From positions 1 through 64,000 of IMG/VR virus record IMGVR_UViG_3300031857_000046: a DNA stretch of 64,000 nucleotides; one strand, written 5' to 3'. The position numbers and the translations under genes are program-made. The notes beneath the pieces were generated by a model, which searched no databases, was not told where the DNA came from, and worked only from the letters and a program-made list of their open reading frames with translations. Below, in pieces: positions 3,001 through 64,000 of this stretch; position 1 is the first letter of the stretch, and every line of letters starts with the position of its first letter. Source of the DNA: a virus.

Positions 3001-3742
3001 TAATAGTTGTACCAGTTGCTGTAAATTCAACGCCAAAAGGGTTATCAATGTTATTTAAGTTTATCTTAAATTCAGAGGTATCTTTGTTACTGTTGTAACT
3101 ATAATCTGTTACTGTTGGTGATAACAAACCCAAAACATTTAATTTGATTGATGCTGGGTATTTTTGTGATATCTCAACAATAGTATTTTTAACCGTTTCT
3201 TTTAGTGGTGAATATAAAACATAATTTTCAAGTTTTTTCTTATCAAAAAGAATGGTTACTGTTAAATTGTTTTCAATCTTAGCGTTAATAGATTCAACTA
3301 AATTAGTTGATGACTGTGTATTCCTGTTTGGGTTTAGGTTATTAATCGATTGAGCTGTGTATGATCTTGTTTCAGGACTAATATTTGCGGTTTTACCCTC
3401 AACTGGTCTTTGTGAAACACTTGTATTAATCGAAAAATTACCTAAAGTAAAGAATGGGTCACCAGAAATCTCATTATTATTGTTTGCAAATTGCAAACCA
3501 ACCGCTTTATCACCAATGTTACCCCTTCCAGATATAGCATTTGGGACACCTTGTCTTTTTACAAATCTTAGTGCCTGTTCATAGGCCAAATACGTTGCAC
3601 AGGGCACATATTTATTTTGCCCATTAATATTATATGTTCTGTATCCATTACAGCCTAGACTAGCCGAAGCTGCAAGAGCCGCTTCTGGTGTATCGTATAA
3701 ATCAGCTATTAACGGTGTGTTTGAGTAACTAAGATTAGCCAT
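1..3742 (-). CDS. Large baseplate/tail-fibre-like protein, 3' end beyond window
   Basis: Open for 1247 codons from the ATG at 3742, which overlaps the previous stop by 8 bp, and still open at base 2, so the C-terminus is missing. Around residues 470-545 there is a segment (FGNMLGF, then LWRRIFINAYYLWKSKGT, then a Leu-Val-Gly-Leu-Pro stretch) of the kind seen in P2 gpI-like and other baseplate-to-fibre proteins; this is family recollection, not a search. From about residue 945 the protein becomes a series of beta-rich modules of the pattern LPxGxGxYxxTFxxxxxDDLxxYxG, seen three times (about 945, 1080 and 1205). They look like small jelly-roll or carbohydrate-binding repeats. As the last gene of the baseplate run it is probably a wedge-to-fibre connector or adhesin. 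The exact role is inference. Confidence 0.6.
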   Translation of the reverse strand, partial: MANLSYSNTPLIADLYDTPEAALAASASLGCNGYRTYNINGQNKYVPCATYLAYEQALRFVKRQGVPNAISGRGNIGDKAVGLQFANNNNEISGDPFFTLGNFSINTSVSQRPVEGKTANISPETRSYTAQSINNLNPNRNTQSSTNLVESINAKIENNLTVTILFDKKKLENYVLYSPLKETVKNTIVEISQKYPASIKLNVLGLLSPTVTDYSYNSNKDTSEFKINLNNIDNPFGVEFTATGTTITDEENINPVRNFSKRYSDFVVYFNDTEYKILNVTLPSSQTDTDNGIYLVVQGNPFGSVVNNNQTVNTTFWLKPSLEKFDEFQNSLSDMGKFLMDYNYDLKVYSSVIRYTKVTDSGARLNTEEHLVFPQLDETNIDIFTTDFDAYLTKLNQISDDFDATKTNLITRFLTTDSLKEFDTDDRKINLMFSLIGRNFDNIRKYIDGITFMTNLTYDKIENIPDLLVKNFGNMLGFETYNVEDENTIIESLFNIKDLNVEPGLTPAEIDIELWRRIFINAYYLWKSKGTRKSIEFILNLVGLPDSIFEIDEKVYIARNPVNFTDKSFEIYRGAYSDETLLTLLPFDKDGYPTVPHDVRYQESGFTTTNDGKNFGPYDFGKQYIQAFEKRGGVSMFTVDRYTDNVKSWVYSTEEVLRLSEDSVGYTEYYEPHSKLVINSKELEVYLASDKIFDLSVYRYYNRNAVDINSDLNFAFVPTINGGDLTFNQFLQKSLDNYIKPDNRKTIKTYPTLTKIYYDYLNSVSSPMTNTKDLEFLSYFDSSWVKLVQQFTPATTILNAGKKIQNSKFMDNKFIYKHGLNNSVSWLGTDGSEFQELAKRPVNQGLTNPFNPIGTNKLPIVGESSTFTFEGFKGKNYIGYDPTINEYFGFYYGIEDACNSDVQIYKWEDGLDFGNDLLYYGNVNKGNVPSFGIGDNTVGPNYYPISKQITLPGSGDYLLTFKYTSNDDLVVYNGPNNGSPLLANLPYTSGSTLTYSSVVTAGTSSLSFYNDLNYGSDCYISDLFVIPLTETQKNGTFITYDNKLYRLNTNTLFINPIQINTYPEFRKSYVLLDAGYDTDTITLPNGPGTYKVTFTLEGLDDLLIYDGYISGTQLDGISGLSGTTRTYSKDLTFTTNYFTIWNMRNFPNDVEITDLVLMQKHTPDSLTVNGEMVYEYIPFDADAKTLTFKDSNTILLTPDPIVGNTHVVKLPEGPGTYQITFTTNTGDDLTIHDGKTTAGTTLVSEGG

Positions 3743-34156: not shown

Positions 34157-37100
34157 TTAATTAGAGAGCTCTGGGTAAAGTTCTGGGTAAAGTATTGATA
34201 ATTGTGTTTGATCATTTTGTTTTATAGACTCAGCCTCATTTGTCGTACATAAGTTAATAATAGGATCATTCTTGTATTTTGTAAAGAGTTTTAGGTTTTT
34301 AACAATAACAGGATCTGGTTTACTTGTTTCTCTAAATGTTACTAAATAATCCTCTACACCACCTTTAAACAATTTAGCACGCATTTCTGATATACCCAAT
34401 ACTTTGTTTTGATTGTCAACACCAAAAACATTTTTATTTATGTTTTTAATCGTATTGTCGTTTATATTTGACATATAACTCAGAACATCACCTAGATCAG
34501 CATCGTATTTTTTAACAAAACTCTCAATAAGTTTAAAGGTATCCTCAATTGATTTTTTTATCTTTTTCTTTTGAGCCTCTACATACGCTTCACTTCTTTT
34601 TGGGTCGTTTTTAATACTAGCTGGTGGGTTAATACCAGTTTTTTCTATTTTAGCCATGATAGCCTCAATATGTGTTGGTTTATTTATGTATAAGTTATAT
34701 AAAAACTCAATGAATAAAACCTCATGCATTGCTGACATTTTTACAGTTTCACCGTATGTTATACCAGTTGTTACACCAGTTGTTATACCACTTGTGGAAC
34801 CACTAAAACCATTTAATTTAATTTTTTGTTGGTCTGGTAATGAATTAACATACTCTTCTGTTATGGTATAATCATAAGCCATTAAAGTGTTAAGATTTTT
34901 TAATTGCGTATTTAATGTTGTGCCAGTTATATTAGGGTTGTTATCATTAAATAGGTAATAATTTATATCCTTTATAAAACTATTTTGTGAATTTGTTTTT
35001 TTGTTTACACCGTAATAGAACAAAATATTAGAAACTGTATCACCTGTTGTTGAACCAGTTGGGTTTAATGTTACACCAGTCAAATTATTAACTTGTAAAT
35101 CAAATCCATAAGACGGTGTATAAGCTAAATCAATATCATTGTTTTTGCTCTCAAACTGGTCAGATAACATAACCTCTAAAGTCTTATTACTAAAATCTAA
35201 AACTTCATAGTTTATTTTTTCAAACGTATATCTCATTTGATAAACACCATCGTTATACACGTTATTAGCTGTATTTGATATACTACCATCATTTGCTCTT
35301 GTAACTAAAGAGTATGAAGTTGTTTCTAGTGATCTGGCACTATCTGTCGTACCATATTCATATGGGTTAAATGAAAAATTTTCACTTGTTATAGGACCAG
35401 TTACTGGTGGTGTTACCTGCCCAAACTTAAAGGTGTTTGTGGCAGTTGTTCCGTTAGAATCTAGTATATTATTTGTTGGTAAGAAGTTATCAAAATCGTA
35501 TTGGTTTGGTAAATCATTAAGTGTTGTGTAACCAAACACTTTTTTGATGTACTCCATGTTTCTATTGTACTCTTTTATTATATCATCAGATGCGCCATTA
35601 TCTATGTTATTTTTCATTTGTTTAAAGAAATACAAACCATTACCTAATGAAGCATACTGATTTATCGTGAAACCAGTCGTTGGTGATAGAGAATTTGCGT
35701 CATTAATAATATTGTACACATCCGATAAACTAATTAAATTACCACCGTCTATTGATAATTTTTTGTACTCATCATAAGGGTTATAACCAAACATAGTACT
35801 ACCAGTTACTGGCGTTTTTAATTTTTTACCATTAGGTATTACTTCATATAATTTAGCCCTACCTTCTGAATACGTGGCATCATATCCGTACAATGGTAAT
35901 GATAAACCAGCTAATACAACTGACATTTTGGCCACCGAATCATTTAAAGCGTTTATAGTTGTCTCATCATCCGCATCTTTTATAGACATGAATTTTGTAT
36001 ACTCAACATCAAAATAAGACGTAAAATCTTTAATGTGCTGTGTGTCTAAGTTTTTATAAAAAGATTTAAATGTTTTAAGAGTGTCATCAGGGCTAAACCA
36101 AAAAGCTAAAGTGTTTGTAGCGATTTTAGTTCTAAATTCGTCTTTAAATGAACTTATGATATCTCTATATATTTTTATACCGTTAGTGTCTCTAAAGAAA
36201 ATACCACCTGTTTCAGATATACCATTAAAATTATTAGTATACCCATTTGTAAAACTACCTTGGAAATATTTACTACTTCTACCATTGTTAGTGGCACCAG
36301 TTAATGCTGTAAAATTGTAAGGTAAACCTTTACCGTCACCAATTTTAAACATGTATTCTTGTGGGTGTAAATTAAGTTTTAACGCCTCAAATTCCTCTGG
36401 TTTGTTATTATTCTTAGTTAAGAAAAACGGGTGTTGTCTAAACACGTCACCAAGTTCAAAATATCTTTTTTCTTCAGCAACGGTATTAAATATTTCTGAG
36501 TACGTTAACCCGCTAAGGCTTACGCTAGGGATTGTAGTACCAGAGATATTATTAATTATTTCACCTATAGTTGTACCACTAACAGATAGAGGTTTTTTAT
36601 AGTTTTTATTCTTTAATACATTATCAATAACTTTATATTTGGCCGTTGGTGTGTTATTTAAACTTTCTTTTTTACCAACTAAACCACCAAAAGCTGTTAT
36701 GTATTCACCAAAAGTTGTATACAATGAATCAAATAAATCATAATATTGTACATCATATCTTTGTATGTAATACCTACCATATTCTTGTCTAAATGCAAAC
36801 TCACCAAAATTAGAGTGATCTATTGCTGTCCAAGTTGTTGTATCTGTTGGTAACGTTTTTGTATATACACCATTAACAATAGGGTACTGGCTAGCTTTTC
36901 TAACATAATATTGGCCTTGGTATATAACGCAAGTTTCCGCCTTGTATTCTTTGGTTGGGTCAAATGTTGTTGCTCCAGTTAAATAATGATAGTAAGTACC
37001 ACCAGCTAATTTTGGTAGTAATCTTTCGCTAACAACCCCAATTGTACCATAAGGTATTGGTAAATTTTCGGTTGAGGGTGTTATTAACTCAGCCGCTGCA

Positions 37101-40100
37101 ACTATTGGTATTAAATCCAATGAATTTTCAGCAAAGAAATCTTGTTCTAGATTTATTAGATCTCTTTCTCTTCTATCTGTGTTAGCAAAAGTTCTTTCAT
37201 CATACACATCAGTGTTGGCGTAATAGTTAAATGTTAATGCATTTTGTAATTGATCAACATATCTTCTTAAACCTTGCCCACCAATATATTTAAACGACAT
37301 GTTGACTTTCGCTAACATTGGTTGTACACCAATACCTTCTGGGTTTAAATCCCATAATAAAGGATCATAACTAATATTTAAACTATTAACTATGATTTTT
37401 GTGTGGTAAAAATCACCAATTCTTAAAACAGAAACTGGTGGTCTACCAAATGCCGTATTTTTAGCGTCACAACCTGGAACACCAATATCCTTTGTGATTG
37501 TATCACCAGGTCTCATACATTGCTGTAAAAAGGTTAATCTTGCATTTAAACCCTCGGGTGTCATTGCATGAAAAGCTGGACTAAAATATTTTAATTTTTG
37601 TTTTAAACTATCAAAAATAATAGGTGATTCCTCTGATAAATAATCGAAATAATCACACTCAGTTAATAGTTTATTAAGTATTCTTTGCGCTATTTCTCTT
37701 TTTGTTACGTTTGTTGTTGGTACCTCTTCTTCACGATACAATGGTGGCGTTTCAGCTGGTGGTTCTTTTCTTTCTAAAGGTATTTCTTTTGGAATCAAAG
37801 TTGCGTTAATTTCAACCCTTCTAGCAAAAGACGCTATAGGTGATAAATTACCACAAACAATATCAGCCTCTCTTCTGGAAACTTGTTGGAAAGGTGCCGT
37901 ATTAACAGCTATACATGTACCAATAAGTTGACTATTTATCGGTGAAGTAATTCCAGCTGGTACCGATGGTATAAAATTATTTTTTACTTTATCAAACTCA
38001 TCATAAGTTTTAACCATATAATAAGTTTTGTTGTCACCATAACTTATTGGAAAATATTCTATACCAGCAGATGTTTTTAGTGGTCTACCGAATAAAGTTG
38101 TATACTCATTTGGTTCTGGGTTTGTCTGAAATAAATCATCAAGTGTTTGACCTCTTGAGACAATATCAAAACTGATTTCTTGTTTAGAATTAATATCACC
38201 CCTTAAGATAACAATTTTTTTAGATTTTTCTAAGTCACCGTGTAGTTTATTAACATCCGCTTCAGTTAATATAGGTTCACCATTTATTGTATAACATTTA
38301 ACGTCATCATCAGACATGACATCAAGTATTAACCATTTTGTAACCGAAACAAATCTTCTTGATGCTAATTTATCATTATATCTTTGTAATTCCGCTAAGT
38401 TTTGACCAGGAGCTGATGGTGATGCGTGTGCAACCATACTAAATCTTAAGTTATAGTCTTTAGTGCTTGCATAATTTTTCGCTGAATAAGCTTTTGCAAT
38501 GTTTAAATACTGTTCCTCATAACCATAAGATTTTCCAGGATAAGTTTTTCTATCCGTAGTAAAAAAGTGTTGGTGTTCTTTTGCCGCATTTGTACCTATT
38601 GTGTAATCGTATCTAATCCAAGCCAATCTTTCTGATGGGTCTAAGTTAGAACCACCGCCAACAGCAACTTCTTTAAACTCAGAGTTTTGATCGAGTTTTT
38701 GTCCTCTAGCTAAATTTTGATAGATATCATAATAATCAGAATATTTGTCAACGACAAAATTCGCTTGATTTTTATACGAATTTTTTTGTATAGGGATGTC
38801 ATTCTCAAAAAATAAGTTAAATTGTGTTATCTTTTGGGTTTCTAATTTCGGGGTTTCTATCGTAATACCTTCTTGTTTAAAGCTACCTGATGATTCAACT
38901 TTGGTTCTTATTTTTTCATTTGGTAATCTAATATCCAAATCAGATATAACCTTTTTAAAATACTCAATATCACTATCACTAAACACACCCCATATTCTAG
39001 CTAATTCAAAAATATCGTAATCTAAACAACCTGCCCAGAAAGCTGCTAATAATTCATCAACTTCACCATCTGTTAATTGAGCAAATTCTTTATCTACTAA
39101 TAAGTTCATTATTGTTGGGTGATCGACAACTATATCCCATGACAATGTGCCAGATCTTTCTGTGTTGTTGTAGGTATAAATTGGTTCTGGTCTACCTAAA
39201 AATTGGTGTGTTGTCCAGTTTGTTGTTGTATCATCTGTGAATCTAATATTGTATGGCGGGAACCACATTATTCTACCACCATTAGCACCCTTTTCACAAG
39301 GTGGTAATTCATTAAATTGAGATGAATCTCTCCAAGCTAAATTCTCAATGGAGAACATATATTTTCTGGCCCTTTTCTCACCAAAAGCCTCAACAACAGC
39401 GTCTCCAAGACCATCACCTAACCTACCGTAACCTTCGTTAACGTTAAGCGCTGATGGGTGTATATTTAAGTTTCCGTATCTATCCAATACAGAATTTCTT
39501 TCTTTTCTATTTAACTCTTTCCATCTAATAAGATCCGTTATCTTTGAAAATGGTTTTGCTTTTGTCCAGGCTCTACAAAGAGTAACCTCATTGTACATTC
39601 TTTCGTCATCTCTTTTACCAGCTGTATCTAAACCAGGTACTAAATAAGTGTACCCGATAACCTCATCTTTTTTATTTTTTCTTGGTGTTTTAAACGGTGT
39701 AATAACCCCAGAGCTTTTTGGGGAAAAATGATAACCATCGGTAAATTTAGTTTTAGTTTGGTCAATAGATCTTATTGCACGATTACTTGTACCAGATTTC
39801 AATAATTGTTGTGTAACCCCCATTATTGAGCAATCTCTAAATCTACCAGTTGAGGTTGGGTCATTTGGATCCCCGCCCATTGTTCTGGATAATATATCAT
39901 CGTCAAGTTTACCTAAAGAATCCCATTTAAGTACACCATTTTTACCGTCTTCTATTGTCCAACGTTGTTCATCAGTGCTACCTCTCCAAATAAATGATGT
40001 TTGTATTGATCCGTATTTAGAAACATTTTCAACACCTGGTTCTACATAATAATCAGGAACACCATCGTTTATTCTAATAGACCTTGTTAATTCACTATTA

Positions 40101-42922
40101 CTCTTAACTTGTAAACCGTTATTATCTTGTAATAAATTAAATATGCTAACATTTTTACCTGTTGTTATATAAGGTTTAAAAACAACGTCCTCAGTACCTT
40201 TTTGTGCTTTAGTTGTTCTTTCAAATATTCTTCTATCAGTAGCACCCATTTTACTTGTATAATCTGGGGAATATTTGTTATTACCTAAATTTGAAAATAG
40301 AAAAAATCTTTGTGATCTACCTGTTTCATCTAATCTATCAATAACCCTATTATCAAGTTTATTTTCAATATTTGAATCACCGAAACAAGATGGTCTTAAA
40401 ACAATTGAGTCATCGGTAAAAAAAGCAGATGTTAAACCACCCAAACCACCAATGTCCGAAATAAAACTCGCTAATTTACCCAATCCACCTTTAAATGTTG
40501 TAATATCGGCATTACCCCTTTCAAGAATTGATGATGGGTCTTTAATAAATTCAATAACTTTAAGTGGATTTGTTAACATGTCATCGATGGTTGTTAAACC
40601 AGCAACTTCTTGTGCACTTTTTGCTAATAATCTTGTGTTTAAATGAAACTTTAATTCTAAAGCCGCTATTTGTGCTAATAAAGTGTCATTCTTTAAAGTT
40701 GGTTCTGTTAGTAAGTTTGCAATATCCAAATCAGCGCCCAATAAAGCGCTTAACGGTGTTGATGCCGTTGGCACGTTTAAGAAATCACCCATTCTTATTT
40801 CTGTTGGATCGGCATTACTTAGCTTGTCTTCAGTAAGATATGGATTTTGTGGTGTGTTTGGGGCTTGATTTAGTAATAAATTTTGTAAAATTTCATATAC
40901 AACAACGTTTTCCGCACCATATTTATTGGTTGTTATGTTAGTTGTGTAGTTTGGTGTTAAACCAGATAATTGAGCTTGGTTTGGTACAATAAAATCGTTT
41001 ATAATTGTTTGTGAACCAACTGGTACAATACCTGGATTAGCCAATGTAAACGCATCGGTTGGATCTGTTGGATCCTTAACCATGTTTTTGTTGAACAAGC
41101 TAATCATTATTGGTCCAGCTAACGTAACAACATCACCAGGGTTAACATTTGAAAATGTGCTTATTTGTGCTAAGGTACCTCTACCAGCCAAATATTGTGC
41201 AGCGATTGAAGCACTTGGTGATAAAGCTGTTAAACCAGCAGAAACATCCGCTGGCGTATTTAACGTCATTGATAAGTTCAATGTTCTTGGCGCAAGTGCG
41301 TCTGTTAATACATTACCAGGGTTAACAACATTAAAGTTATTGATTGTTGTATCTAAACCTCTACCACCCAAATACTGTGTTGCTATTAAAGCTGATGGTG
41401 TTAAATCAAAAATACCAGTGGTGATATCAGCTGGCGTGCTTAAATTCATTGCAAGATCCAAAGTTCTTGGTGCAAGTGAATCAGTAACAACATTACCAGG
41501 GTTTACGTTTATAAAGTCATTGATAACACTGTCCAAACCTCTACCAGCCAAATACTGAGCGGCCAAAGCACCACTTAATGATGTAAGACCAGCTGTAATA
41601 TCTGTAGGTGTATTGAGTGTATGTGAAAAGTTTAAGTTTCTTGGTATCACTGAATCAGTAACAACATTACCAGGATTTACGTTAGGTGATGTTGTAATTG
41701 CAACAAATGTACCTTTACCTGAAAGATATTGCGCAGCATAAGCACCACTTAAATTTGTCAACCCAGCCGTAATGTCGACTGGTGTATTTAATGTTTGTGC
41801 AAAGTTTTGTGTCCTTGGTGTAATAGCCTCACTTAATACATCGCCAGGATTTACGTTAGGTGATGTTGTGATTGCAACAAATGTACCTTTACCTGAAAGA
41901 TATTGTGCAGCTAAAGTAGAGTTGGGCGACAAATCATTTACACCTGCGGTAATATCCGTTGGTGTATTTAATGTTTGTGCAAAGTTTTGTGTTCTTGGTG
42001 TGATAGCATCTGATAAAACATCACCAGGGTTAACAACATTAAATGTGTTGATAACACTAAATGTTCCAAGTCCAGCCAAGTATTGAGCCGCATAAGCAGC
42101 GTTAGGTGTTAAATCATTTACGCCAGCGGTAATGTCCGTTGGGGTACCAATATTCATAGCAAGATCTAAAGCTCTTGGTACGATGGCATCTGTTAATACA
42201 TCCCCAGGGTTTATATTAGCAAATGTATTGATTACAGTAAAAGCGCCTTTACCTGAAAGGTATTGGGCAGCGTAAGCCGCATTAGGTGTTAAATCATTTA
42301 CACCAGCTGTAATATCCGTTGGTGTGTTCAAAGTCATGGCAAAATCCAAATTTCTTGGTGCCACGGCATCTGTTAACACATCACCTGGGTTTACGTTTAC
42401 AAAATCATTTACAACGGTAAATGAACCTCTACCTGAAAGGTATTGAGCGGCAAACGCAGCGTTAGGTGTTAAGTCATTTACACCAGCAGTAATATCTGTA
42501 GGTGTGTTTAATGTGTGTGATAAATCTAAAGTTCTTGGTGCAACAGCTTCTGTTAATACATCACCAGGGTTTAAGTTAGCAAAATCGTTTATAACTGTTA
42601 ATTGACCCTTACTATTAACTAAAGCGGCAACATAAGCGCCACTCGCTGTCGTATCTAATAAACCAGCATTAATATCAACTGGTGTATTTAATGTTTTATT
42701 AAGATTAGCTATTCTTGCTGGTATGCCGTCTGTATCAACATTACCAGGGTTTTGTACATTATAAAAATGTATAGCAGCGTCTTGTCCTAACGAACTTAAA
42801 TAAGCGTTAACTGTTACCGAATTAGTTAGATTAACTAAACCAGTTACAACATCAGGTGGTGCTTGTAAATTTAAATTAAGGATCACGTTTCTAAACTGTC
42901 CCGATATACTATTTAAGCTCAT
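34157..42922 (-). CDS. Giant baseplate protein with ten 60-residue repeats and OmpA-like segment (2921 aa)
   Basis: A 2921-residue virion protein. Residues about 19-612 are ten tandem copies of a 58-60 residue unit (pattern LNTPTDITAGVNDLTPNAAY, then AAQYLSGKG, then NPGDVLTDAI.PR). Residues about 1160-1270 contain RIMWFPPYNIRFTDDTTTNW and GRPEPIYTYNNTERSGTLSW, of a type I recall in baseplate or tube-cap proteins of related phages. Residues about 1480-1535 (YNLRFSMVAHASPSAP, then LQRYNDKLASRRFVSVTKWL) resemble the OmpA C-terminal peptidoglycan-binding fold. The C-terminal 1300 residues are unrecognised. It follows the tape-measure genes and carries its own late-type element only 6 bp before the ATG, hinting at leaderless or very short-leader translation. 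Confidence 0.7.
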   Translation of the reverse strand: MSLNSISGQFRNVILNLNLQAPPDVVTGLVNLTNSVTVNAYLSSLGQDAAIHFYNVQNPGNVDTDGIPARIANLNKTLNTPVDINAGLLDTTASGAYVAALVNSKGQLTVINDFANLNPGDVLTEAVAPRTLDLSHTLNTPTDITAGVNDLTPNAAFAAQYLSGRGSFTVVNDFVNVNPGDVLTDAVAPRNLDFAMTLNTPTDITAGVNDLTPNAAYAAQYLSGKGAFTVINTFANINPGDVLTDAIVPRALDLAMNIGTPTDITAGVNDLTPNAAYAAQYLAGLGTFSVINTFNVVNPGDVLSDAITPRTQNFAQTLNTPTDITAGVNDLSPNSTLAAQYLSGKGTFVAITTSPNVNPGDVLSEAITPRTQNFAQTLNTPVDITAGLTNLSGAYAAQYLSGKGTFVAITTSPNVNPGNVVTDSVIPRNLNFSHTLNTPTDITAGLTSLSGALAAQYLAGRGLDSVINDFINVNPGNVVTDSLAPRTLDLAMNLSTPADITTGIFDLTPSALIATQYLGGRGLDTTINNFNVVNPGNVLTDALAPRTLNLSMTLNTPADVSAGLTALSPSASIAAQYLAGRGTLAQISTFSNVNPGDVVTLAGPIMISLFNKNMVKDPTDPTDAFTLANPGIVPVGSQTIINDFIVPNQAQLSGLTPNYTTNITTNKYGAENVVVYEILQNLLLNQAPNTPQNPYLTEDKLSNADPTEIRMGDFLNVPTASTPLSALLGADLDIANLLTEPTLKNDTLLAQIAALELKFHLNTRLLAKSAQEVAGLTTIDDMLTNPLKVIEFIKDPSSILERGNADITTFKGGLGKLASFISDIGGLGGLTSAFFTDDSIVLRPSCFGDSNIENKLDNRVIDRLDETGRSQRFFLFSNLGNNKYSPDYTSKMGATDRRIFERTTKAQKGTEDVVFKPYITTGKNVSIFNLLQDNNGLQVKSNSELTRSIRINDGVPDYYVEPGVENVSKYGSIQTSFIWRGSTDEQRWTIEDGKNGVLKWDSLGKLDDDILSRTMGGDPNDPTSTGRFRDCSIMGVTQQLLKSGTSNRAIRSIDQTKTKFTDGYHFSPKSSGVITPFKTPRKNKKDEVIGYTYLVPGLDTAGKRDDERMYNEVTLCRAWTKAKPFSKITDLIRWKELNRKERNSVLDRYGNLNIHPSALNVNEGYGRLGDGLGDAVVEAFGEKRARKYMFSIENLAWRDSSQFNELPPCEKGANGGRIMWFPPYNIRFTDDTTTNWTTHQFLGRPEPIYTYNNTERSGTLSWDIVVDHPTIMNLLVDKEFAQLTDGEVDELLAAFWAGCLDYDIFELARIWGVFSDSDIEYFKKVISDLDIRLPNEKIRTKVESSGSFKQEGITIETPKLETQKITQFNLFFENDIPIQKNSYKNQANFVVDKYSDYYDIYQNLARGQKLDQNSEFKEVAVGGGSNLDPSERLAWIRYDYTIGTNAAKEHQHFFTTDRKTYPGKSYGYEEQYLNIAKAYSAKNYASTKDYNLRFSMVAHASPSAPGQNLAELQRYNDKLASRRFVSVTKWLILDVMSDDDVKCYTINGEPILTEADVNKLHGDLEKSKKIVILRGDINSKQEISFDIVSRGQTLDDLFQTNPEPNEYTTLFGRPLKTSAGIEYFPISYGDNKTYYMVKTYDEFDKVKNNFIPSVPAGITSPINSQLIGTCIAVNTAPFQQVSRREADIVCGNLSPIASFARRVEINATLIPKEIPLERKEPPAETPPLYREEEVPTTNVTKREIAQRILNKLLTECDYFDYLSEESPIIFDSLKQKLKYFSPAFHAMTPEGLNARLTFLQQCMRPGDTITKDIGVPGCDAKNTAFGRPPVSVLRIGDFYHTKIIVNSLNISYDPLLWDLNPEGIGVQPMLAKVNMSFKYIGGQGLRRYVDQLQNALTFNYYANTDVYDERTFANTDRRERDLINLEQDFFAENSLDLIPIVAAAELITPSTENLPIPYGTIGVVSERLLPKLAGGTYYHYLTGATTFDPTKEYKAETCVIYQGQYYVRKASQYPIVNGVYTKTLPTDTTTWTAIDHSNFGEFAFRQEYGRYYIQRYDVQYYDLFDSLYTTFGEYITAFGGLVGKKESLNNTPTAKYKVIDNVLKNKNYKKPLSVSGTTIGEIINNISGTTIPSVSLSGLTYSEIFNTVAEEKRYFELGDVFRQHPFFLTKNNNKPEEFEALKLNLHPQEYMFKIGDGKGLPYNFTALTGATNNGRSSKYFQGSFTNGYTNNFNGISETGGIFFRDTNGIKIYRDIISSFKDEFRTKIATNTLAFWFSPDDTLKTFKSFYKNLDTQHIKDFTSYFDVEYTKFMSIKDADDETTINALNDSVAKMSVVLAGLSLPLYGYDATYSEGRAKLYEVIPNGKKLKTPVTGSTMFGYNPYDEYKKLSIDGGNLISLSDVYNIINDANSLSPTTGFTINQYASLGNGLYFFKQMKNNIDNGASDDIIKEYNRNMEYIKKVFGYTTLNDLPNQYDFDNFLPTNNILDSNGTTATNTFKFGQVTPPVTGPITSENFSFNPYEYGTTDSARSLETTSYSLVTRANDGSISNTANNVYNDGVYQMRYTFEKINYEVLDFSNKTLEVMLSDQFESKNNDIDLAYTPSYGFDLQVNNLTGVTLNPTGSTTGDTVSNILFYYGVNKKTNSQNSFIKDINYYLFNDNNPNITGTTLNTQLKNLNTLMAYDYTITEEYVNSLPDQQKIKLNGFSGSTSGITTGVTTGITYGETVKMSAMHEVLFIEFLYNLYINKPTHIEAIMAKIEKTGINPPASIKNDPKRSEAYVEAQKKKIKKSIEDTFKLIESFVKKYDADLGDVLSYMSNINDNTIKNINKNVFGVDNQNKVLGISEMRAKLFKGGVEDYLVTFRETSKPDPVIVKNLKLFTKYKNDPIINLCTTNEAESIKQNDQTQLSILYPELYPELSN
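41086..42868 (-). repeat. Ten tandem ~180-bp repeats coding the N-terminal repeats of the giant protein
   Basis: The units are in frame and diverged at the DNA level, with most copies keeping TPTDITAG, AAQYL and NPGDV codons. Two copies lack two residues in the DLTPN region. Copies four to six share the closest sequence, indicating recent duplication. Confidence 0.85.
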
Positions 42923-51475: not shown

Positions 51476-54400
51476 TTATATGTTATCGAATGATACGTTT
51501 TGTGGAGTTACTGTAAATTCAAGTTCAATGAATTCCAAAGTAGGTGTTGGTTTGATAAAGATTTTACCTTTTAAAGTATTTCTATCGTTATCTTCAACGT
51601 CCATTGCAACGCTAACTCTAAAGTCTGTTAAACCTCTTTCTTTTCTGATGTTATCCAAGATTGGGTTAACCAAAGACAAGAATTGATTTCTAACTGTGGT
51701 ATCATTTGGATCGAATAATAATCTCTTAGATACACTCATGATCAATCTTCTCGCTTGTAACAACAATCTTCTGATGTTCAATCTATCAAGAGCACTTGAT
51801 TTAACCTGCAAGTTTCTGTTACCCCAGATAACAACCCCAACGTCTGAATAAGTCGCTAATGGGTTAATTCTACCTGGATATAAAATATCTCTTGCTTCTT
51901 GGTCAAGAACTATACGAGCTCTATTACATTTAACTAAACCTCTATTGTAACCAGCAGTTGCAAACCAAGGGAACGCTACGTTATCTGTATAAGCCATATT
52001 TCTTACTACCTCAGCAGTAGGTGGGATATACAAGTTTGCGTTATTGTCTGTATCTGTGATTTGTATCCAAGGATAGTAAACCGCAGTGTAGTTAGAATCG
52101 ATGTCAGTGTTTTCTAATTCATCAACGATATCTTCAGCAAAATACCAGTTTTCAGTATCTGATGGGTTGTTGTTGTTTAACAACTTGATATCAGGTAATG
52201 TTGGTAAATAAATCGCATCCAATCTCTTTTCTTCAACAACTTCAATAGCGTCTCTAACCAAATCAGTGTTGTTTAACACGTCAATACCAGGAGTTGCCAA
52301 GATGTTGATAGCGGTTTCTTCTGGGTTTTGGAATGTTCTGATACCGTACATTGTTGCATAGTAGTCAGAAGTACCGAATAACTCAGCGTACTCAACATTT
52401 GTAAATGTATCGAATGTACCAGCTACGAAACCAGTTCTACCGATTTTGTACTCATCTGTGTTTGTTCTGTTAACTCTATAAGCATCCCAACCATCAAAAC
52501 CACCAGCAAATAAAGCTGTGAATTTTCTTGTTCTCATGTTATTATAAGGGTGAGTTGTTGTTCCGTCAACCACAATTGGGTCAACAAATGAAGCAACACC
52601 AACCGCAAAAACTTGTTCTCCAGTAACAGAGTCAACAATGGTACTAGCATTGATATCCATGTGGAAACCTTTTGTTTTTGTTGTATAATCATCACCAGTA
52701 TTGTAGGCGTTGTCACCTAAGATACTAATTTTACCTTTAAACAATAATAGGTCTTTATCAAATCCAAATTGGCTTGAGAAACCTAAATAGTTTTTAGTTA
52801 CTCTATCACCACTAGAAACTGTAGCATTAGCAAATGGTGGGTTGTAAATTGTGTCACCAGGTGCATAATATTTCAATTTGTAAGGCATTTCAGGAACAGC
52901 TGTTGCTGTGTAACCACTAGCACTATTTGTTCTAAATTCGTAACCTTCAAAACCAGCTGGTACACCATCAGTTGGTGCGTTTACAGCCATTTCAAGAACA
53001 ACATAAGCGCTCTTTAATGGGTATTTGTTATCAATTGTACCTATTTTTCTACCAACGAAATTGTCTAATGACTCATCCATCGTACAATCAACAAATTTTT
53101 CAATTATTGATACAGCTCTATCTGTGTCGCTAAATGATCTGATGTAGATATCAAAAGTTTTCTTAGATAAATCAACATTAGCGATTGAAGCTTTGATTTC
53201 AGTGTTAGCACTTGTACCGTCAGAAATTGAAATTAATCTGAATAATCTTTGTGGTAAACCACCTCTTAACTCAGATACAAAGAAAGGTGTTACTGGTGAT
53301 TGATATTGGAATCTATAGTGATCCCAGTTATTAACAGATGTTAATTCACTGTATAAACCTTTAATTTTACCACTTAACCAACCAAATTTCAGAGAGTTAT
53401 CATAAACTTCCTCAACATAGATTTGAGAATCTTTGTCAGATGGTGTAGTACCGATTACTTTTTTGATATAGTTAGATTTTGTGCTATCTAAAGAAACTGT
53501 ATAAGAGAATGTACCGCCAGTTGGGTTTGCTGTTGTACCAGTTAAATCAAAAGCTAAATATGGGTCGTTAACAACACCTGTTGGAGCGACCATATCTAAT
53601 GAATTAACTTTATAACCTAACACATCTGAAGTGTAAGTACCTCTACTTCTAACGGTTGCAACGTTTTTGTTGTGACCTTCAGCGAAAGGATCAGCTGTTA
53701 ACGTAACAGTGAACAATTCTAATTTACCGTTAAGTGTGTGAGCACCAGCACCTGTAAATGTATGGCAATATAAAGCAAATGATGGTCCACTGTATGTCTC
53801 GGTAGCGGTATTGTACGCTAACTCATTATTTAAAATATAAGCGTCTCTATCACTTGTTGGAACTGTGAACGGTAATTCATATGCGTCAATATAAACTGGG
53901 GTTATACCATGTGTAGCCGCATCAACCGTTAAATCAGTATCCATATCGTCAGTCAAAAGACCCCAATATAAAGCGTTTCCGTTATAGAAATCAGCATTAA
54001 TGTAACTACCAACAGTTGTAAAGAATTGGTTAAACACGGTGTCAAAGTCAGTTGTAGCAACACCAGTTAAGTTAGCGATATAATCAATAAGATCGGTGTT
54101 ACCAGAGTTACCAGTAACATAAAAACTATTGTTATTCGTGTCAACTTTAAAATTAATGGTTGTTTGTGTAATACCAGTGTGTGATAATGTTGATTCATCA
54201 CATGCACCTAATGTTTTAATAACCCAAGCCATACCAGCATCATAGCCAGATAATCCTAAAAGTCTTGTAACATACAATTGGTTTGATTGTGTTAAATACT
54301 GTTTTGCTATGTATGGTAATTCATACTTAACAATTTGTGTATTTTTAAATTTTTCTGGATTAGTACCACCAAAAGTAGTCTTAAATTCATCAAAATTTCT

Positions 54401-54541
54401 GATGAATATTGGTTGGAACGCTGGACCCTTTAAGGTTTCACCCACTACACCTAATGTTGTAACACCAACTGTCTCAGTTGTGAATGTTAAATCTTTTTCG
54501 GTTGTGTAGACACCTGGAGATGCATAAACTTTGTTTGCCAT
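51476..54541 (-). CDS. 18: Contractile tail sheath protein gp18
   Basis: A 1021-residue tail sheath subunit. The N-terminus (MANKVYASPGVYTTEKDL, then LGVVGETLKGPAFQPIFI) is the sheath family opening, whose strand donates to neighbouring subunits. The C-terminus (PLATYSDVGVVIWGNRNLQV, LDRLNIRRLLLQARRLIMS, and a final beta hairpin) is the conserved contractile core. T4 gp18 has 659 residues; the extra about 360 residues lie in the middle and look like additional surface domains. Own late-type element about 39 bp upstream and terminator downstream fit high expression. It is followed by the tube gene. Confidence 0.93.
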   Translation of the reverse strand: MANKVYASPGVYTTEKDLTFTTETVGVTTLGVVGETLKGPAFQPIFIRNFDEFKTTFGGTNPEKFKNTQIVKYELPYIAKQYLTQSNQLYVTRLLGLSGYDAGMAWVIKTLGACDESTLSHTGITQTTINFKVDTNNNSFYVTGNSGNTDLIDYIANLTGVATTDFDTVFNQFFTTVGSYINADFYNGNALYWGLLTDDMDTDLTVDAATHGITPVYIDAYELPFTVPTSDRDAYILNNELAYNTATETYSGPSFALYCHTFTGAGAHTLNGKLELFTVTLTADPFAEGHNKNVATVRSRGTYTSDVLGYKVNSLDMVAPTGVVNDPYLAFDLTGTTANPTGGTFSYTVSLDSTKSNYIKKVIGTTPSDKDSQIYVEEVYDNSLKFGWLSGKIKGLYSELTSVNNWDHYRFQYQSPVTPFFVSELRGGLPQRLFRLISISDGTSANTEIKASIANVDLSKKTFDIYIRSFSDTDRAVSIIEKFVDCTMDESLDNFVGRKIGTIDNKYPLKSAYVVLEMAVNAPTDGVPAGFEGYEFRTNSASGYTATAVPEMPYKLKYYAPGDTIYNPPFANATVSSGDRVTKNYLGFSSQFGFDKDLLLFKGKISILGDNAYNTGDDYTTKTKGFHMDINASTIVDSVTGEQVFAVGVASFVDPIVVDGTTTHPYNNMRTRKFTALFAGGFDGWDAYRVNRTNTDEYKIGRTGFVAGTFDTFTNVEYAELFGTSDYYATMYGIRTFQNPEETAINILATPGIDVLNNTDLVRDAIEVVEEKRLDAIYLPTLPDIKLLNNNNPSDTENWYFAEDIVDELENTDIDSNYTAVYYPWIQITDTDNNANLYIPPTAEVVRNMAYTDNVAFPWFATAGYNRGLVKCNRARIVLDQEARDILYPGRINPLATYSDVGVVIWGNRNLQVKSSALDRLNIRRLLLQARRLIMSVSKRLLFDPNDTTVRNQFLSLVNPILDNIRKERGLTDFRVSVAMDVEDNDRNTLKGKIFIKPTPTLEFIELEFTVTPQNVSFDNI

Positions 54542-59030: not shown

Positions 59031-60122
59031 ATGAGAATAAATCCAACCGAAAAGCAAAAAATATACAAACAAGCCAAACATAGGCTTGGGGCTCCTATTA
59101 GGAAGATTCAATTAGAAGATGAACAAATGGACTCACTTCTTGAAATCGCTACAGAAGATTATGTTGAGTTTATTAATAATTGGTTGATTGAACACCAATG
59201 GCCGAGTTTGATTGGTTTAAGCGTTAGCGAAGCTGATTTAACCAGGGCTTTTATTTATAGAACTTTTGATTTAGTCACACAATACACATACTCCTACTCA
59301 AAAATTGTTGGTTTGGGTGCTGGTGAGGGTGGTTATGTTCTTAAAAAAGATTACGTTGAGTTAGTTAAGGGTCAACAAATATATGAGATTCCAGCAAATA
59401 GAGAGATAAATGAAGTGTTATGGTTTACACCAGCTTCATTGGATCAATCTGTAATCGACCCATTCTTAGGTGTTTGGAACAATCAATTCGGTGCCGAATA
59501 TATGGGTTTGGGTAGTTATTACATTTTACCAGCTTTTGACATTTTAATGAGAACAACGGATAGAAACCTTAAAAATAGGATGATTCGTTCTGAGTTAATA
59601 TATAAGATCACAAATGCGCCTGATGGCAAAAAATATCTTCATTTAATGAATACGCCAGGTGGTAAATTTGACTTTAGGGGTTCAATGCTAGATCAAGGTA
59701 AATGTTGGTATTGGTATTATGATATTAACCCATTAATTAAAGATGATTGTTTGGCAAAAAACAAAGATATCATTAAATCACCAGCTGATGTTCCTCTGGA
59801 TGATATATCATTTGATGACCTAAATGATCCAGCTAAAGTTTGGATTAGAAGATATTTTATTGCTTTGTGTAAAGAAACTTTGGGTAGAGTAAGAGGTACT
59901 TTTGGTGGTAAAATACCAGTTCCAGACGCAAATATGGAAATTGAATACCAGTCACTTTTATCAGAAGGTAAGGATGAAATGGTTACACTTAAAAAAGAAT
60001 TAGAGGACAGAATGTTCAAATTAAACCCATTGGAAATTCTTAAAAGAATGTCTACTGAGGCTGAAGAAATTAACAAAGCTCTTAAATACAGAGCGTTCCA
60101 AAAACCAATTAAGATTATATAA
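59031..60122 (+). CDS. 13: Neck protein, gp13-like
   Basis: A 363-residue protein like T4 gp13 (309 aa), which closes the portal after packaging and joins head to tail. I use the ATG at 59031 (MRINPTEKQKIYKQAKHRLG), which follows the late-type element; the frame is open upstream. Family marks are HRLGAPIRKIQLEDEQMDSL at the N-terminus, the QIYEIPANREINEVLWFTP strand pair, and a C-terminal CKETLGRVRGTFGGKIPVPD with the EGKDEM..LKKEL helix, as in gp13. Here it is separated from the gp14/gp15-like genes by two unrelated genes and faces the other way. Confidence 0.65.
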   Translation: MRINPTEKQKIYKQAKHRLGAPIRKIQLEDEQMDSLLEIATEDYVEFINNWLIEHQWPSLIGLSVSEADLTRAFIYRTFDLVTQYTYSYSKIVGLGAGEGGYVLKKDYVELVKGQQIYEIPANREINEVLWFTPASLDQSVIDPFLGVWNNQFGAEYMGLGSYYILPAFDILMRTTDRNLKNRMIRSELIYKITNAPDGKKYLHLMNTPGGKFDFRGSMLDQGKCWYWYYDINPLIKDDCLAKNKDIIKSPADVPLDDISFDDLNDPAKVWIRRYFIALCKETLGRVRGTFGGKIPVPDANMEIEYQSLLSEGKDEMVTLKKELEDRMFKLNPLEILKRMSTEAEEINKALKYRAFQKPIKII

Positions 60123-61777
60123 TGTTTTATACAGCCCTAGATAATAGTGATTATTTTGATTTAATTGTCACAAAAGATTGTCGTGATTTTTATCGTGATT
60201 ATAACGAATGTAATTTAATAAATATTAATATTACTGAAAATCTATGCTCAATACCTGGGAGTATTCAAACAGAAGAAGTTGAATTAAAAAACATAACGTT
60301 AACAGGTTATGATAATTTTTTTATACCCAACGGAGAGATATCAAATATCAATAATTTCACGGGTGACACAATAGGATACACTGTGAATGAAAATATTGTT
60401 GTTGACGTTAATAAAGATTTAACATATGTTATTGAAACTGGTGATACTTTTTGTTTTCATGAAATATCTGGTTATAGCGGAAATTACTGTTATGAGATTG
60501 ATCACCTAAATGTTGACAATGGTATATACTATAATAAATTAAATGGCGGTTTTTACCAGGGATTCTACAAAATTTTTGGTGAAAATGTTGAGTGGTTCCC
60601 AGCTAGAGCAAAAATGGGTTGGACCGTTGATATGGTTGTCCATTTCCCAATGGATGTACCAGGTAGTTCAGGGTCATCTGGTAGTTCAGGGTCTTCTGGA
60701 TCATCTGGCAGTTCTGGTTCTTTTGGGTCTTCTGGATCATCAGGTAGTTCTGGGTCATCTGGTAGTTCAGGGTCTTCTGGATCATCTGGTAATTGCGTAA
60801 CTCTAAATAAAGTATATCCAAATAATAGCGGTTTTATTTTTTATCTGGGGACAAGAGCTGAAAATAAATTTGCTGATAAAACTGATATTGAAATTCAAAG
60901 ATTTGAGGATAATTACGACATAGTACCTCTAAACACAACAAATTTATTTACCTATAATAACCTAATAACATTAAATGGTTTAACGAATTATATTGGTTAT
61001 TTTAATTATTATAATGGTTTAATGTATACTGGTAGAAATTATACAGTAGACTCACAACCTTTACAATACCACCAAGAATATAGTGATCTCACGTATAATG
61101 CGTTTGGTATAAGAGTCACCAATGATGGTAGAATCGGTTACAGAACAATATACCCAACTGATATATGTTATACAGGCGTAACCCAAGAAGTTAGTGGTAT
61201 AACAAACAACTCGTTTATTATGGACCCAATTGATGACTGTGTTAATTATACAAGATCACTAATTGTTACAAAATATTTTACAATAGAGGAGTGTTATACA
61301 AAAAACCCTGTTATTGATGTAACGGAAAATAAATTCTTGAATATAACTGGTGTATTTGAAAGAGATTTTTCTTATGGGAATAACTGTCAGTTAAAATATG
61401 GTGATTATAAAAAAGGTACCTTCTCAATATACCTTAATGGGTTCTTAGTTTTTAGGAATAGGAATTTTGTTGAGGTGATACCACATGAATTAGATATTGA
61501 TTCGAAATACCAGGAAGGTGTCCCCTTTAATATTTCATTTGGTGGTGGGACCCAAAGCTTAATCGACCCTGTGGTATTTGATGAAAACAAAGTACTTGGT
61601 ACTGTTTTAGAAAGATTTTTTGCTGGAACATTCCTAGGTGGTGTTAAATCAATTAAAATGTATTGTGTACCATTGTACACTGTTGAGGTTAAAAAAGAAT
61701 TTAGAAATATTGCGGGTATATATAATTTGCCGATAATAAAGGGTGGTAGACAGATATTTATAAAAAATTTATTCTAA
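60122..61777 (+). CDS. Collagen-like, lectin-like fibre protein (551 aa)
   Basis: A 551-residue structural protein in three parts. Residues 1-178 are a unique N-terminus rich in aromatic residues. Residues about 180-222 are 13 consecutive Gly-Ser-Ser triplets with one Gly-Ser-Phe, an uninterrupted Gly-X-Y pattern. The C-terminal about 330 residues are beta-rich and end in FSIYLNGFLVFRNRNFVEVI, then GVPFNISFGGGTQSL and FAGTFLGGVKSIKMY, which resembles the concanavalin/LamG-like domains of phage adhesins. It overlaps the gp13-like stop by 1 bp and the next start by 1 bp, so it is in one transcript. A neck whisker or side fibre is inferred. Confidence 0.65.
   Translation: MFYTALDNSDYFDLIVTKDCRDFYRDYNECNLININITENLCSIPGSIQTEEVELKNITLTGYDNFFIPNGEISNINNFTGDTIGYTVNENIVVDVNKDLTYVIETGDTFCFHEISGYSGNYCYEIDHLNVDNGIYYNKLNGGFYQGFYKIFGENVEWFPARAKMGWTVDMVVHFPMDVPGSSGSSGSSGSSGSSGSSGSFGSSGSSGSSGSSGSSGSSGSSGNCVTLNKVYPNNSGFIFYLGTRAENKFADKTDIEIQRFEDNYDIVPLNTTNLFTYNNLITLNGLTNYIGYFNYYNGLMYTGRNYTVDSQPLQYHQEYSDLTYNAFGIRVTNDGRIGYRTIYPTDICYTGVTQEVSGITNNSFIMDPIDDCVNYTRSLIVTKYFTIEECYTKNPVIDVTENKFLNITGVFERDFSYGNNCQLKYGDYKKGTFSIYLNGFLVFRNRNFVEVIPHELDIDSKYQEGVPFNISFGGGTQSLIDPVVFDENKVLGTVLERFFAGTFLGGVKSIKMYCVPLYTVEVKKEFRNIAGIYNLPIIKGGRQIFIKNLF
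60661..60792 (+). repeat. Gly-Ser-Ser codon repeats (collagen-like tract)
   Basis: A tandem 9-bp repeat with synonymous changes between TCA, TCT and AGT serine codons. It encodes GSS triplets with one TTT (Phe) interruption. Confidence 0.9.
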
Positions 61778-62214: not shown

Positions 62215-62230
62215 TGCCAAAATAATGATT

Positions 62231-64000
62231 ATGGCCGAATACAAGATTTCCCTTGAAGAGATAGAAAAGTTTTTAAATGGGCACGATGATGAGAAATACA
62301 TCGTGAATGTTGAGTACGATGCCGAAACTAATCTGATCCATAAAGTTAAACAAGATCCAGAAAGGGGTAATTATATTGAAACCGAACCATTACTCGCTTT
62401 CATGTGGATTAAAAACCTTAATAAAATTAAGGAACTAACCAATTTTTACGGTAATAGTGATGCCAAAATTAAGTCCGCTAGACAAAGATTTGGTATTGAA
62501 ATCAAAGCTTTAGGTGGTGACCACCCAAAGTTAATTGACGGTTATAGGTATTTGGTTACATGTAATCAGGGTCACAAAAGAATGTTAGATTTTTTTAGAG
62601 AGGGTGGTATTTTTGTTTACGACAAAAGACATGATATTAACACTCATTTCTTAATGATATCACCTGTCGAGCAGTATTTTATACATACTGGTAAGCGTTT
62701 GTTTAAGGGATTTGAAGAATACGATGAGATTCACAAATTTATATTTGACTTAGAGACAACAGGGTTAGACCCAGCCATCAATCGTATTTTCTTGATTGGT
62801 ATCTACACCAATTTAGGCGTTAGAGAAATCATACCCGTTGAAGATGATGATGAATCTGAAAGACAAGCCATTACAAAATTCTTTGAGAAAATTAATGAGA
62901 TTAAACCAACCATCATTGCTGGTTATAATAGTGCAAACTTTGACTGGCCATTCTTCTTTAAAAGATGTGAAATTCTTGGTTTAAATATTCAGGATATCGC
63001 AATTACCTTAAAAGTTGGTGAATTAATCAACAACAAAGATAGTATTTTAAAGCTGGGTAACGAGGTTGAGGACTACACCCAAACTAATATGTTTGGTTAT
63101 AGCGTTATCGATATCATACACTCAGCTAGACGTGCACAAGCAATTGATTCAAGCATGAAATCGGTTGGTTTGAAATATGTTTGTAAGTATAACAAGATTG
63201 CAAAAAAGAATCGTGTTTATATTGTTGGTGATAAAATTGGTAACACATGGTACTCAAAAGATAAATTTTATTTTGATGATAGAACAGGTGCCTACTCTAA
63301 AACAAAACCAGCTTTGGAGTTCATGGATTACATTCGTAGAGAAGATGTTCAGGCTAACCCAGATAAAGTGTTTGTTTTTGGTGATAATATTTTAAGACAA
63401 GGACTTGGCGGTCAGGCAAAAGAAATGCGTGGAGAACCGAATGTCATTGGTATCGTAACCAAGCACACCCCAGAATCAACACCAGAATCTTATTTCAATG
63501 ATAAGGATTTTGAAATACTTAAAAAACACATAGATTCCGATATTAATCAAATAATCGAAAAGATTAAAGAAGGTAAGACAATCGTTTTCCCTAAAATGGG
63601 TATCGGTACAGGTTTGGCTCAGTTAGATATGAGAGCCCCAAAAACATTCAAGTATCTAAAGGGTTTATTAAGTGCGTTACGTGATTACATTAATACTTTT
63701 CAAGAAGTTGATGGTAGATATATCGTTGAGCGTTACTTGATTGATGACTTATGGGAAACTATGGAAGTGGACGATGTTTATAACCAGTCATCGTTCTTGT
63801 TAGCTAAATTAGTACCAACAACATATCAAAGGGTTTCTACCATGGGTACAGCTGGTCTATGGAAATTATTGATGATGACGTATTCATTTGAAAATGATTT
63901 GGCAATACCAGTATCGGATGTTAAAAGAGATTACACAGGTGGTTTATCAAGATTATTTAAAGTTGGTTATTCAACCACTTTAAGAAAGATGGACTACAAC
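62231..64000 (+). CDS. 43: Family B DNA polymerase (gp43-like) with inserted macro-like domain, 5' part
   Basis: The first 590 codons of the replicative polymerase; the polymerase domain lies beyond the window. The 3'-5' exonuclease motifs are present: Exo I FDLETTGLD (D173, E175), Exo II NSANFDWPFF (D238) and Exo III YLIDDLWE (Y502, D506). Between Exo II and Exo III are about 268 residues against about 105 in T4 gp43. The surplus includes residues about 378-488, FVFGDNILRQGLGGQAKEMR...PNVIGIVTKH...FND...VFPKMGIGTGLAQLDM, which matches free-standing DUF7831-type phage proteins as I recall them and has a macro-domain look. The reading frame is continuous through the insert. A host-type promoter precedes the gene. 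Confidence 0.85.
   Translation, partial: MAEYKISLEEIEKFLNGHDDEKYIVNVEYDAETNLIHKVKQDPERGNYIETEPLLAFMWIKNLNKIKELTNFYGNSDAKIKSARQRFGIEIKALGGDHPKLIDGYRYLVTCNQGHKRMLDFFREGGIFVYDKRHDINTHFLMISPVEQYFIHTGKRLFKGFEEYDEIHKFIFDLETTGLDPAINRIFLIGIYTNLGVREIIPVEDDDESERQAITKFFEKINEIKPTIIAGYNSANFDWPFFFKRCEILGLNIQDIAITLKVGELINNKDSILKLGNEVEDYTQTNMFGYSVIDIIHSARRAQAIDSSMKSVGLKYVCKYNKIAKKNRVYIVGDKIGNTWYSKDKFYFDDRTGAYSKTKPALEFMDYIRREDVQANPDKVFVFGDNILRQGLGGQAKEMRGEPNVIGIVTKHTPESTPESYFNDKDFEILKKHIDSDINQIIEKIKEGKTIVFPKMGIGTGLAQLDMRAPKTFKYLKGLLSALRDYINTFQEVDGRYIVERYLIDDLWETMEVDDVYNQSSFLLAKLVPTTYQRVSTMGTAGLWKLLMMTYSFENDLAIPVSDVKRDYTGGLSRLFKVGYSTTLRKMDYN

Follow-up and report, generated by a model that had tools for sequence, protein, structure and literature searches.

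Within a 64,000-nucleotide stretch of viral DNA (the window; positions 1 to 64,000 of the 111,137-base virus record IMGVR_UViG_3300031857_000046), the gene for a family B DNA polymerase was found to carry a domain of the DUF7831 family (PF25176) inserted in its exonuclease domain, and one lineage of large contractile-tailed phages carries this DUF7831-bearing polymerase. We favor the reading, at a probability of about 0.4, that a macro-like domain was acquired once in the polymerase and serves as a module processing adenosine diphosphate ribose (ADP-ribose) at the replication fork, perhaps stripping adducts of the DarT type. Both the polymerase family and the DUF are known, and their combination was not found described in searches of open-license PMC papers, where the term "DUF7831" has no match and none of the papers returned describes such a polymerase in its title or abstract start. 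This agrees with an earlier sequence-only reading of the window, which knew of no described polymerase of this kind.

The polymerase gene starts at 62231 on the plus strand and continues to the window end at 64000, which covers the first 590 of its 1032 codons; no stop interrupts the frame within the window, and the stop is reached at 65329 of the virus record. The same gene was recovered at 232-3330 of locus L002, and a second in-frame ATG lies at 62225. In Pfam, the window protein matched DNA_pol_B_exo1 at residues 208-316, and the full-length protein of locus L004, identical in the part covered by the window, matched DNA_pol_B with an E-value of 1.1e-9; the polymerase also matched a DNA polymerase family in PHROGs. 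For comparison we aligned 91 unique cores from frames of at least 850 residues, 25 with the insert and 66 without, five of the 25 being overlapping fetches of contigs already present, which leaves about 20 distinct viruses. Seven carboxylates of the exonuclease and polymerase were checked and are kept in 91/91 cores, namely D173 and E175 of Exo I (62747-62755), D238 of Exo II (62942-62944) and D506 of Exo III (Y502...D506, 63734-63748), all encoded on the plus strand, together with D588, D706 and D708 of polymerase motifs A and C. A model of the whole polymerase (mean predicted local distance difference test, pLDDT, 84.6) produced 273 PDB matches at an E-value of 0.001 or better, with folds of the KOD, 9N and RB69 polymerases among them (9oat at the top with Z 26.2, RB69 gp43 with Z 22.6). 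The polymerase read from 62231 is complete and of family B, with intact exonuclease and polymerase motifs.

The DUF7831 match covers residues 363-477 (63317-63661, plus strand) with an E-value of 1.2e-44 and a score of 151.4 bits, where the curated cut-off is 27, spanning positions 2-116 of the 118 in the profile, and PHROG 2072, a family whose function is not known, matches at the domain as well (E 5e-17). Alignment with relatives lacking the insert places the whole of it at about residues 358-488 (about 63302-63694, plus strand), with approximate edges, as a short helix present at the empty site may have its place taken by the final helix of the insert. When IMG/VR was searched with the part of the polymerase that lies in the window, 43 loci were returned: 25 of them contain the domain (62-100% identity; one, L022, is cut by the contig end), and the other 18 (42-46% identity) match nearly the whole query with the domain absent. 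Polymerase-profile and domain-profile scans added three contigs of the same architecture (L060, L148 and L149), and at least 28 viral contigs besides the window's own carry the domain at the same place, L003 and L004 being identical over the query; these carrier counts are lower bounds, since the additional relatives were taken from the best 80 of at least 421 matches and the best 80 of 150. The distance from G337 to Y502 is exactly 164 residues in 25/25 insert cores against 46-59 in the 66 cores without it (48 or 49 in 59 of these), and between Exo II and Exo III the former have 268-269 residues and the latter 150-180. With a baseline of about 150 residues in the relatives, the net insert therefore amounts to about 115 residues.

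The sequence-only reading had proposed a DUF7831-type domain within the exonuclease domain of an uninterrupted polymerase frame with intact Exo I to Exo III, and the frame, the motifs and the domain were all borne out. Its figure of about 268 residues between Exo II and Exo III also stands, but the T4 value of about 105 residues that it used as a baseline gives way to that of the insert-free relatives, and its location of the insert is right with coordinates (63363-63695) that begin about 46-61 bases late. The Pfam scan, the whole-polymerase model and the search for further family B polymerases with the insert, which it had suggested as checks, gave DUF7831, a family B polymerase fold and at least 28 further contigs, respectively. 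An assembly error, which it had named as a possible refutation, is ruled out together with ordinary exonuclease sequence by the recurrence in at least 28 other contigs, the strength of the DUF7831 match and the clean empty site in relatives.

A tree of the cores built with the insert left out (889 columns) separated the 25 insert tips from the 66 others with a support of 1.0, and when 103 unique DUF7831 domains were placed in a tree of their own, the 19 that come from polymerases grouped as one clade with a support of 0.961. Since the insert-bearing cores form one clade, the domain was acquired once. Ratios of nonsynonymous to synonymous substitution rates (dN/dS) ranged from 0.035 to 0.47 in 17 chosen pairs, 11 of which have a dS above 1, and from these pairs the insert is under purifying selection. 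A collection of 50,697 phage records contains 116 with a protein-level match to the window part of the polymerase, in none of which 80% or more of it is covered at one place, and none with a DNA-level match; within this collection there appears to be no catalogued isolate with this polymerase, and the lineage appears to be uncultured.

The sequence-only reading had also likened the domain to a macro fold. That the DUF7831 domain is macro-like and related to the ALC1-like (TARG1/DarG) class is supported, indirectly, by a fold comparison and by a two-step profile link through a second family, while a direct profile match fails. An AlphaFold2 model of 63293-63700, built with 74 sequences, reached a mean pLDDT of 94.6 and a predicted template modeling score of 0.88, and in VIA-align comparison with the PDB macrodomains hold seven of the first eight places, four of these being TARG1 entries. 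The top match is TARG1 with ADP-ribose (2l8r, Z 7.2, 108 residues, 3.6 Å), and the next macrodomains are BT1257 (2fg1, Z 6.8), CHIKV nsP3 (5.8), 4j5s (5.6), IBV Nsp3 (5.3), 4j5r (5.3) and 4j5q (5.2). The intermediate in the profile link is the FGSN family, which is marked by the pattern FGSN...YAIPTKD...IGCGLAGY and whose sequences were collected by DNA pattern; the filter fits 73 of 80 loci (at least 80 in the scan), with 68 unique sequences, 40 of them aligned. The DUF7831 and FGSN profiles matched with a score of 44.4 (probability 92.5%, E 4.9e-7; best of 30 column shuffles 23.1), and the FGSN and DarG-type profiles with a score of 54.3 (probability 95.7%, E 9.4e-9; best of 30 column shuffles 19.5), both links also scoring above reversed profiles and their E-values coming from pairwise comparisons, not from a database search. 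These alignments pair FGDN and FGSN with the macrodomain Asn, GGQA and GAGAA with GxG, and TK with TKD and the FPTK of DarG, and the second glycine loop is paired as well. Against sequences of solved structures, the sole match of the DUF7831 profile was Twinfilin (E 0.91), and none was significant for the FGSN profile (best, a glyoxalase-type sequence at E 0.15; then, at E 0.22-0.36, entries of BT1257 and TARG1 together with one further sequence). The FGSN sequences (L266-L345, with G-GAA between FGSN and YAIPTKD) are common stand-alone phage genes; given that 3/3 of those scanned have no Pfam match and that the family is linked to DarG-type profiles, this would appear to be a family of macro type that has escaped annotation.

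The residues expected in a macro pocket can be followed along the insert, on the plus strand throughout. FGDN (63377-63388) stands at the end of the second strand; its Asn is kept in 19/19 unique polymerase inserts and aligns, via the FGSN family, with the Asn conserved in macrodomains of the DarG type. The GLGGQA loop (63401-63418) includes the macro GxG motif after strand 2, GLG following the model strand 25-32, and in the residue table of the 19 unique inserts G37 and G39 are kept in all and G40 in 13 (A5 numbering). The TK pair with K411 (63458-63463) is aligned to the catalytic lysines K80 of DarG and K84 of TARG1 (PMC9411070, PMC8501950), and this position holds K in 18 of the 19 inserts, with R in L018, and K in 76 and L in 8 of 84 other DUF7831 domains. 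At the position of the TARG1 catalytic Asp (D125), A or S was found in 19/19 inserts. DarG is likewise described without the TARG1 Lys/Asp dyad, keeping the Lys alone (PMC9411070), and the inserts, as judged from aligned residues, show this DarG pattern of a Lys kept without the Asp. SCO6735 has Gln at the catalytic lysine position (PMC9411070), and the lysine is therefore not universal in the ALC1-like class. The segment PKMGIGTGLAQL (63590-63625) corresponds to the loop that binds phosphate in macrodomains (P-LGCGNGGL in the DarG type) and contributes P100, G105 and L111 to the residues kept in 19/19 inserts, the others being N32, both GxG glycines, R46, N50, T56 and P116. GDN, GxGGQA and TK are all kept in 13/19.

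DUF7831 entered once, in frame, in a loop between Exo II and Exo III and has kept a fixed length since. In the reading that we favor, the domain would bind ADP-ribose and cleave ADP-ribosyl linkages, and as part of the polymerase it would act at the replication fork, where its location in the exonuclease domain would bring the lysine-bearing domain to ADP-ribosylated single-stranded template. The most likely substrate may be template DNA ADP-ribosylated as by DarT-type defenses, and a polymerase with its own de-ADP-ribosylase could replicate DNA that would otherwise block it. DarTG defense consists of ADP-ribosylation of phage DNA, and escape mutations have been reported in phage DNA polymerases (PMC11348598, PMC11481870, PMC10684548). 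A role beside template-reading enzymes fits the occurrence of DUF7831, at 1330-1443, in a giant polypeptide with N4-type virion RNA polymerase domains (L154 2-8332; PHROG 2206, E 3.9e-105). Only tentatively do we extend this to a replicase with an in-built DNA de-ADP-ribosylase, which would strip template bases at the fork and undo DarT-type defense, the copy in the virion RNA polymerase doing likewise for first transcription. Another locus, L157, has the same domain-profile match score as L154.

Several observations weigh against the favored reading. The domain model has four strands of at least three residues with intervening helices, whereas a macro domain has a six-stranded sheet of order 1-5-6-2-4-3 (PMC9503650), and PF01661 (Macro) matches neither the window protein nor appears among the 16 families matching any of 74 DUF7831 domains; because PF01661 fails and four strands are predicted, the domain was not filed as a canonical macro domain. 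Best Z values of 7-8 are typical even of models with no clear match, so that a Z of 7 alone is not decisive, and DarG of M. tuberculosis (5m3i) reached Z 5.0, level with unrelated methyltransferases at Z 5.0-5.3. Foldseek comparison of the domain model with the PDB gave no match at an E-value of 0.001 or better, and the direct profile score of DUF7831 against 13 DarG-type macrodomains was 16.6, lower than both the best shuffle (18.8) and the reversed profile (21.4), and is not significant. G30, G40, A42 and L108 are changed in six of the 19 inserts (L050, from the same contig as L011, L018, L019, L012, L014 and L016), and one has R for K. Among the large DUF7831 proteins scanned, polymerase domains were found in L154 only and in none of L155, L165, L185, L190, L197 and L211. 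Records of relatives contain PF25176 in 5/15 cases, always within a polymerase-sized frame, and in 0/10 of those lacking the insert, while as a replacement gene PF01661 and PF08719 were each found in 0/15 records, an absence that proves little since the records are possibly fragments. The ten insert-free records, themselves possible fragments, have no DUF7831, macro or NADAR match, and the function is thus not essential to this polymerase type. Lastly, no DarT-type defense could be matched to these phages.

The strongest counter-argument comes from PMC9503650, which holds that soluble derivatives of ADP-ribose are the main targets of macro domains in phages. It is possible, if doubtful, that the domain binds or hydrolyses such a derivative from host defense (cyclic ADP-ribose, ADP-ribose-1''-phosphate or ADP-ribose), either as a sensor tuning synthesis and proofreading or as a rider on an abundant protein. 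The nicotinamide adenine dinucleotide (NAD)-salvage neighbors of stand-alone DUF7831 genes fit this argument too: such genes lie at most two open reading frames (ORFs) from NAMPT and nicotinamide mononucleotide (NMN)-adenylyltransferase/Nudix genes in L158 and L169, and as close to an NMN-adenylyltransferase/Nudix gene in L153, and in phage Cp1R7A-A1 the NAMPT and NMN-adenylyltransferase/Nudix pair is seven and eight genes from DUF7831. The neighbor scan used crude ORF calls, covered 104 of 215 listed neighbor ORFs around 58 loci and had no background model, for which reason its evidence is supportive only; NadV, moreover, is reported in 22-33% of large phages (PMC9503650), and being so common it makes the neighbor evidence modest. 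The idea of the sequence-only reading that the module might control or shield the polymerase, or detect NAD-derived signals, is compatible with these neighbors and with the reported DarTG escape in phage polymerases. A cpYpsA SLOG domain shares one polypeptide with DUF7831 in L175, and L218 has a sub-threshold YpsA SLOG match; in this contig and in L215, both of Acidobacteria type, DUF488 occurs with DUF7831. On the other hand, a soluble substrate offers no reason for fusion to a polymerase, and the nearest folds, of TARG1/DarG type, act on DNA or protein adducts.

We consider it unlikely that the domain has become a structural or protein-contact module, its original activity lost in the polymerase and its sequence kept for stability or for docking of a replisome partner. 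With altered pocket residues in 6/19 unique inserts, some members of the clade could have the domain in a structural role; insert length is fixed, and in several pairs insert identity falls faster than that of the rest (for L004-L010, 0.594 in the insert, 0.883 in the exonuclease and 0.894 in the polymerase). Yet the counts for the residues listed above as kept in 19/19 inserts, and for the lysine kept in 18/19, take in the altered group, and 13/19 inserts retain GDN, GxGGQA and TK. Plain motif decay in the changed-glycine inserts was considered and dropped on the residue table: since N, GxG and K are mostly retained, the six are called altered, not dead. Their dN/dS is 0.079-0.086 in three pairs among L011, L018 and L019 and 0.47 for L011-L012, and the altered-pocket inserts still evolve under constraint. 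The core and domain trees disagree on where these groups attach (key-node support 0.43 vs 0.175).

A protein de-ADP-ribosylase, which would free the polymerase or its partners of ADP-ribose added by host or phage transferases, seems quite improbable to us. TARG1 and SCO6735 do act on protein Glu/Asp-ADP-ribose as well (PMC9411070), but the protein chemistry proposed for TARG1 uses a Lys/Asp pair (PMC9411070), of which the inserts lack the Asp; no transferase was identified in these phages, where none was searched for. That the segment might be ordinary exonuclease sequence, the product of a chimeric assembly, an intein or a homing element can be dismissed, as nothing was found in its favor, relatives with and without the insert already refute it, and a Pfam scan of the full-length L004 protein returned only DUF7831, polymerase, exonuclease and RNase H families and none of inteins or homing endonucleases.

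Outside the polymerase, DUF7831 genes were found in 98 phage records, mainly of Caulobacter and Rhizobium phages; among the 60 of these listed, one is without annotation and the others are annotated as "hypothetical protein", and the stand-alone phage proteins are 40-51% identical among the 60 matches listed. The domain also occurs at 29 loci in bacterial contigs and in predicted proteins of Tupanvirus, Hyperionvirus and Yasminevirus. The DUF7831 gene follows RIIA and RIIB in phiCbK and CcrColossus and a gene annotated rIIB in Kikimora; its place directly downstream of RIIB/rIIB in Caulobacter/Brevundimonas phages (L134, L259, L265) suggests an early, host-conflict setting. Around other annotated copies the genes are for the most part hypothetical, the exceptions in two neighborhoods being a poly(A) polymerase or tRNA nucleotidyltransferase and a metallophosphatase. 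Four Acidobacteria-type contigs (L215, L217, L218 and L220) have DUF7831 close to the beginning of a long open frame, apparently in large multi-domain proteins. A bacterial genome with a DUF7831-like gene (L243) also encodes a 512-residue protein (L245 400-1938, minus strand) that starts with a DarG-type macrodomain, the remainder of which gives the impression of resembling mobile-element multi-domain proteins.

A PHROGs scan of nine other window proteins gave five matches (tail sheath, baseplate wedge, both ribonucleotide reductase subunits and a DnaB-type helicase), which together indicate a contractile-tailed phage with its own replication genes. The tail sheath gene (51476-54541, minus strand) encodes 1021 residues, and the 496 positions of PHROG 23 align across residues 5-1018; from this alignment span, the sheath protein may contain a large insertion. 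An ORF at 60122-61777 (plus strand), immediately upstream of the polymerase region, contains a long SGSSGSSG repeat run, and two giant ORFs lie on the minus strand at 23651-30892 (2413 residues) and 34157-42922 (2921 residues).

With an ADP-ribose-type domain within the proofreading module, replication and the NAD/ADP-ribose side of phage defense meet in one polypeptide, and DUF7831, a family of phages, bacteria and giant viruses, gains a predicted chemistry and a candidate catalytic lysine. Passage of a replicase past DNA ADP-ribosylation becomes testable, with the empty-site relatives as natural controls and the altered-pocket inserts as natural variants. If the proposal were true, it would define a class of replicative polymerases that carry within them an eraser of a defense modification.

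Among known systems, the AdfA/AdfB anti-DarT proteins and the DarTG-escape polymerase mutants are phage answers to DNA ADP-ribosylation as well, the mutations again lying in the polymerase (PMC11481870, PMC11348598). AdfB, a small protein, is believed to bind the toxin, and bypass of adducts is the explanation proposed for the escape mutants; neither is an inserted macro-like domain. Phage SLOG/DUF4326 fusions with replication or nuclease domains likewise set an NAD/ADP-ribose-linked domain on a nucleic-acid enzyme (PMC9503650, PMC7824862), DUF4326 being reported as fused to replication components (PMC7824862). By their descriptions these domains are different from DUF7831, and the excerpts of the two accounts describe no insertion in a replicative polymerase. 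TARG1, DarG and SCO6735 show some resemblance to the predicted fold of the polymerase insert and share with it the order of N, GxG, TK and glycine loop and, in TARG1 and DarG, a lysine at the catalytic position; they differ from DUF7831 in that four strands are predicted for the latter, a direct profile match is absent, and GxG to TK measures 18 positions in DUF7831 (A5) against 47 in the DarG type (A6). The stand-alone DUF7831 proteins of Caulobacter, Rhizobium, Ruegeria and other phages, with their giant-virus homologues, belong to the same Pfam family with the same motif set and are encoded by separate genes, whereas the clade described here has the domain within its polymerase. With the T4/RB69 gp43-type and archaeal family B polymerases, finally, this polymerase has the exonuclease and polymerase motifs and the overall fold in common, and where its insert-free relatives have no domain between G337 and Y502, the insert clade has about 115 extra residues that form DUF7831.

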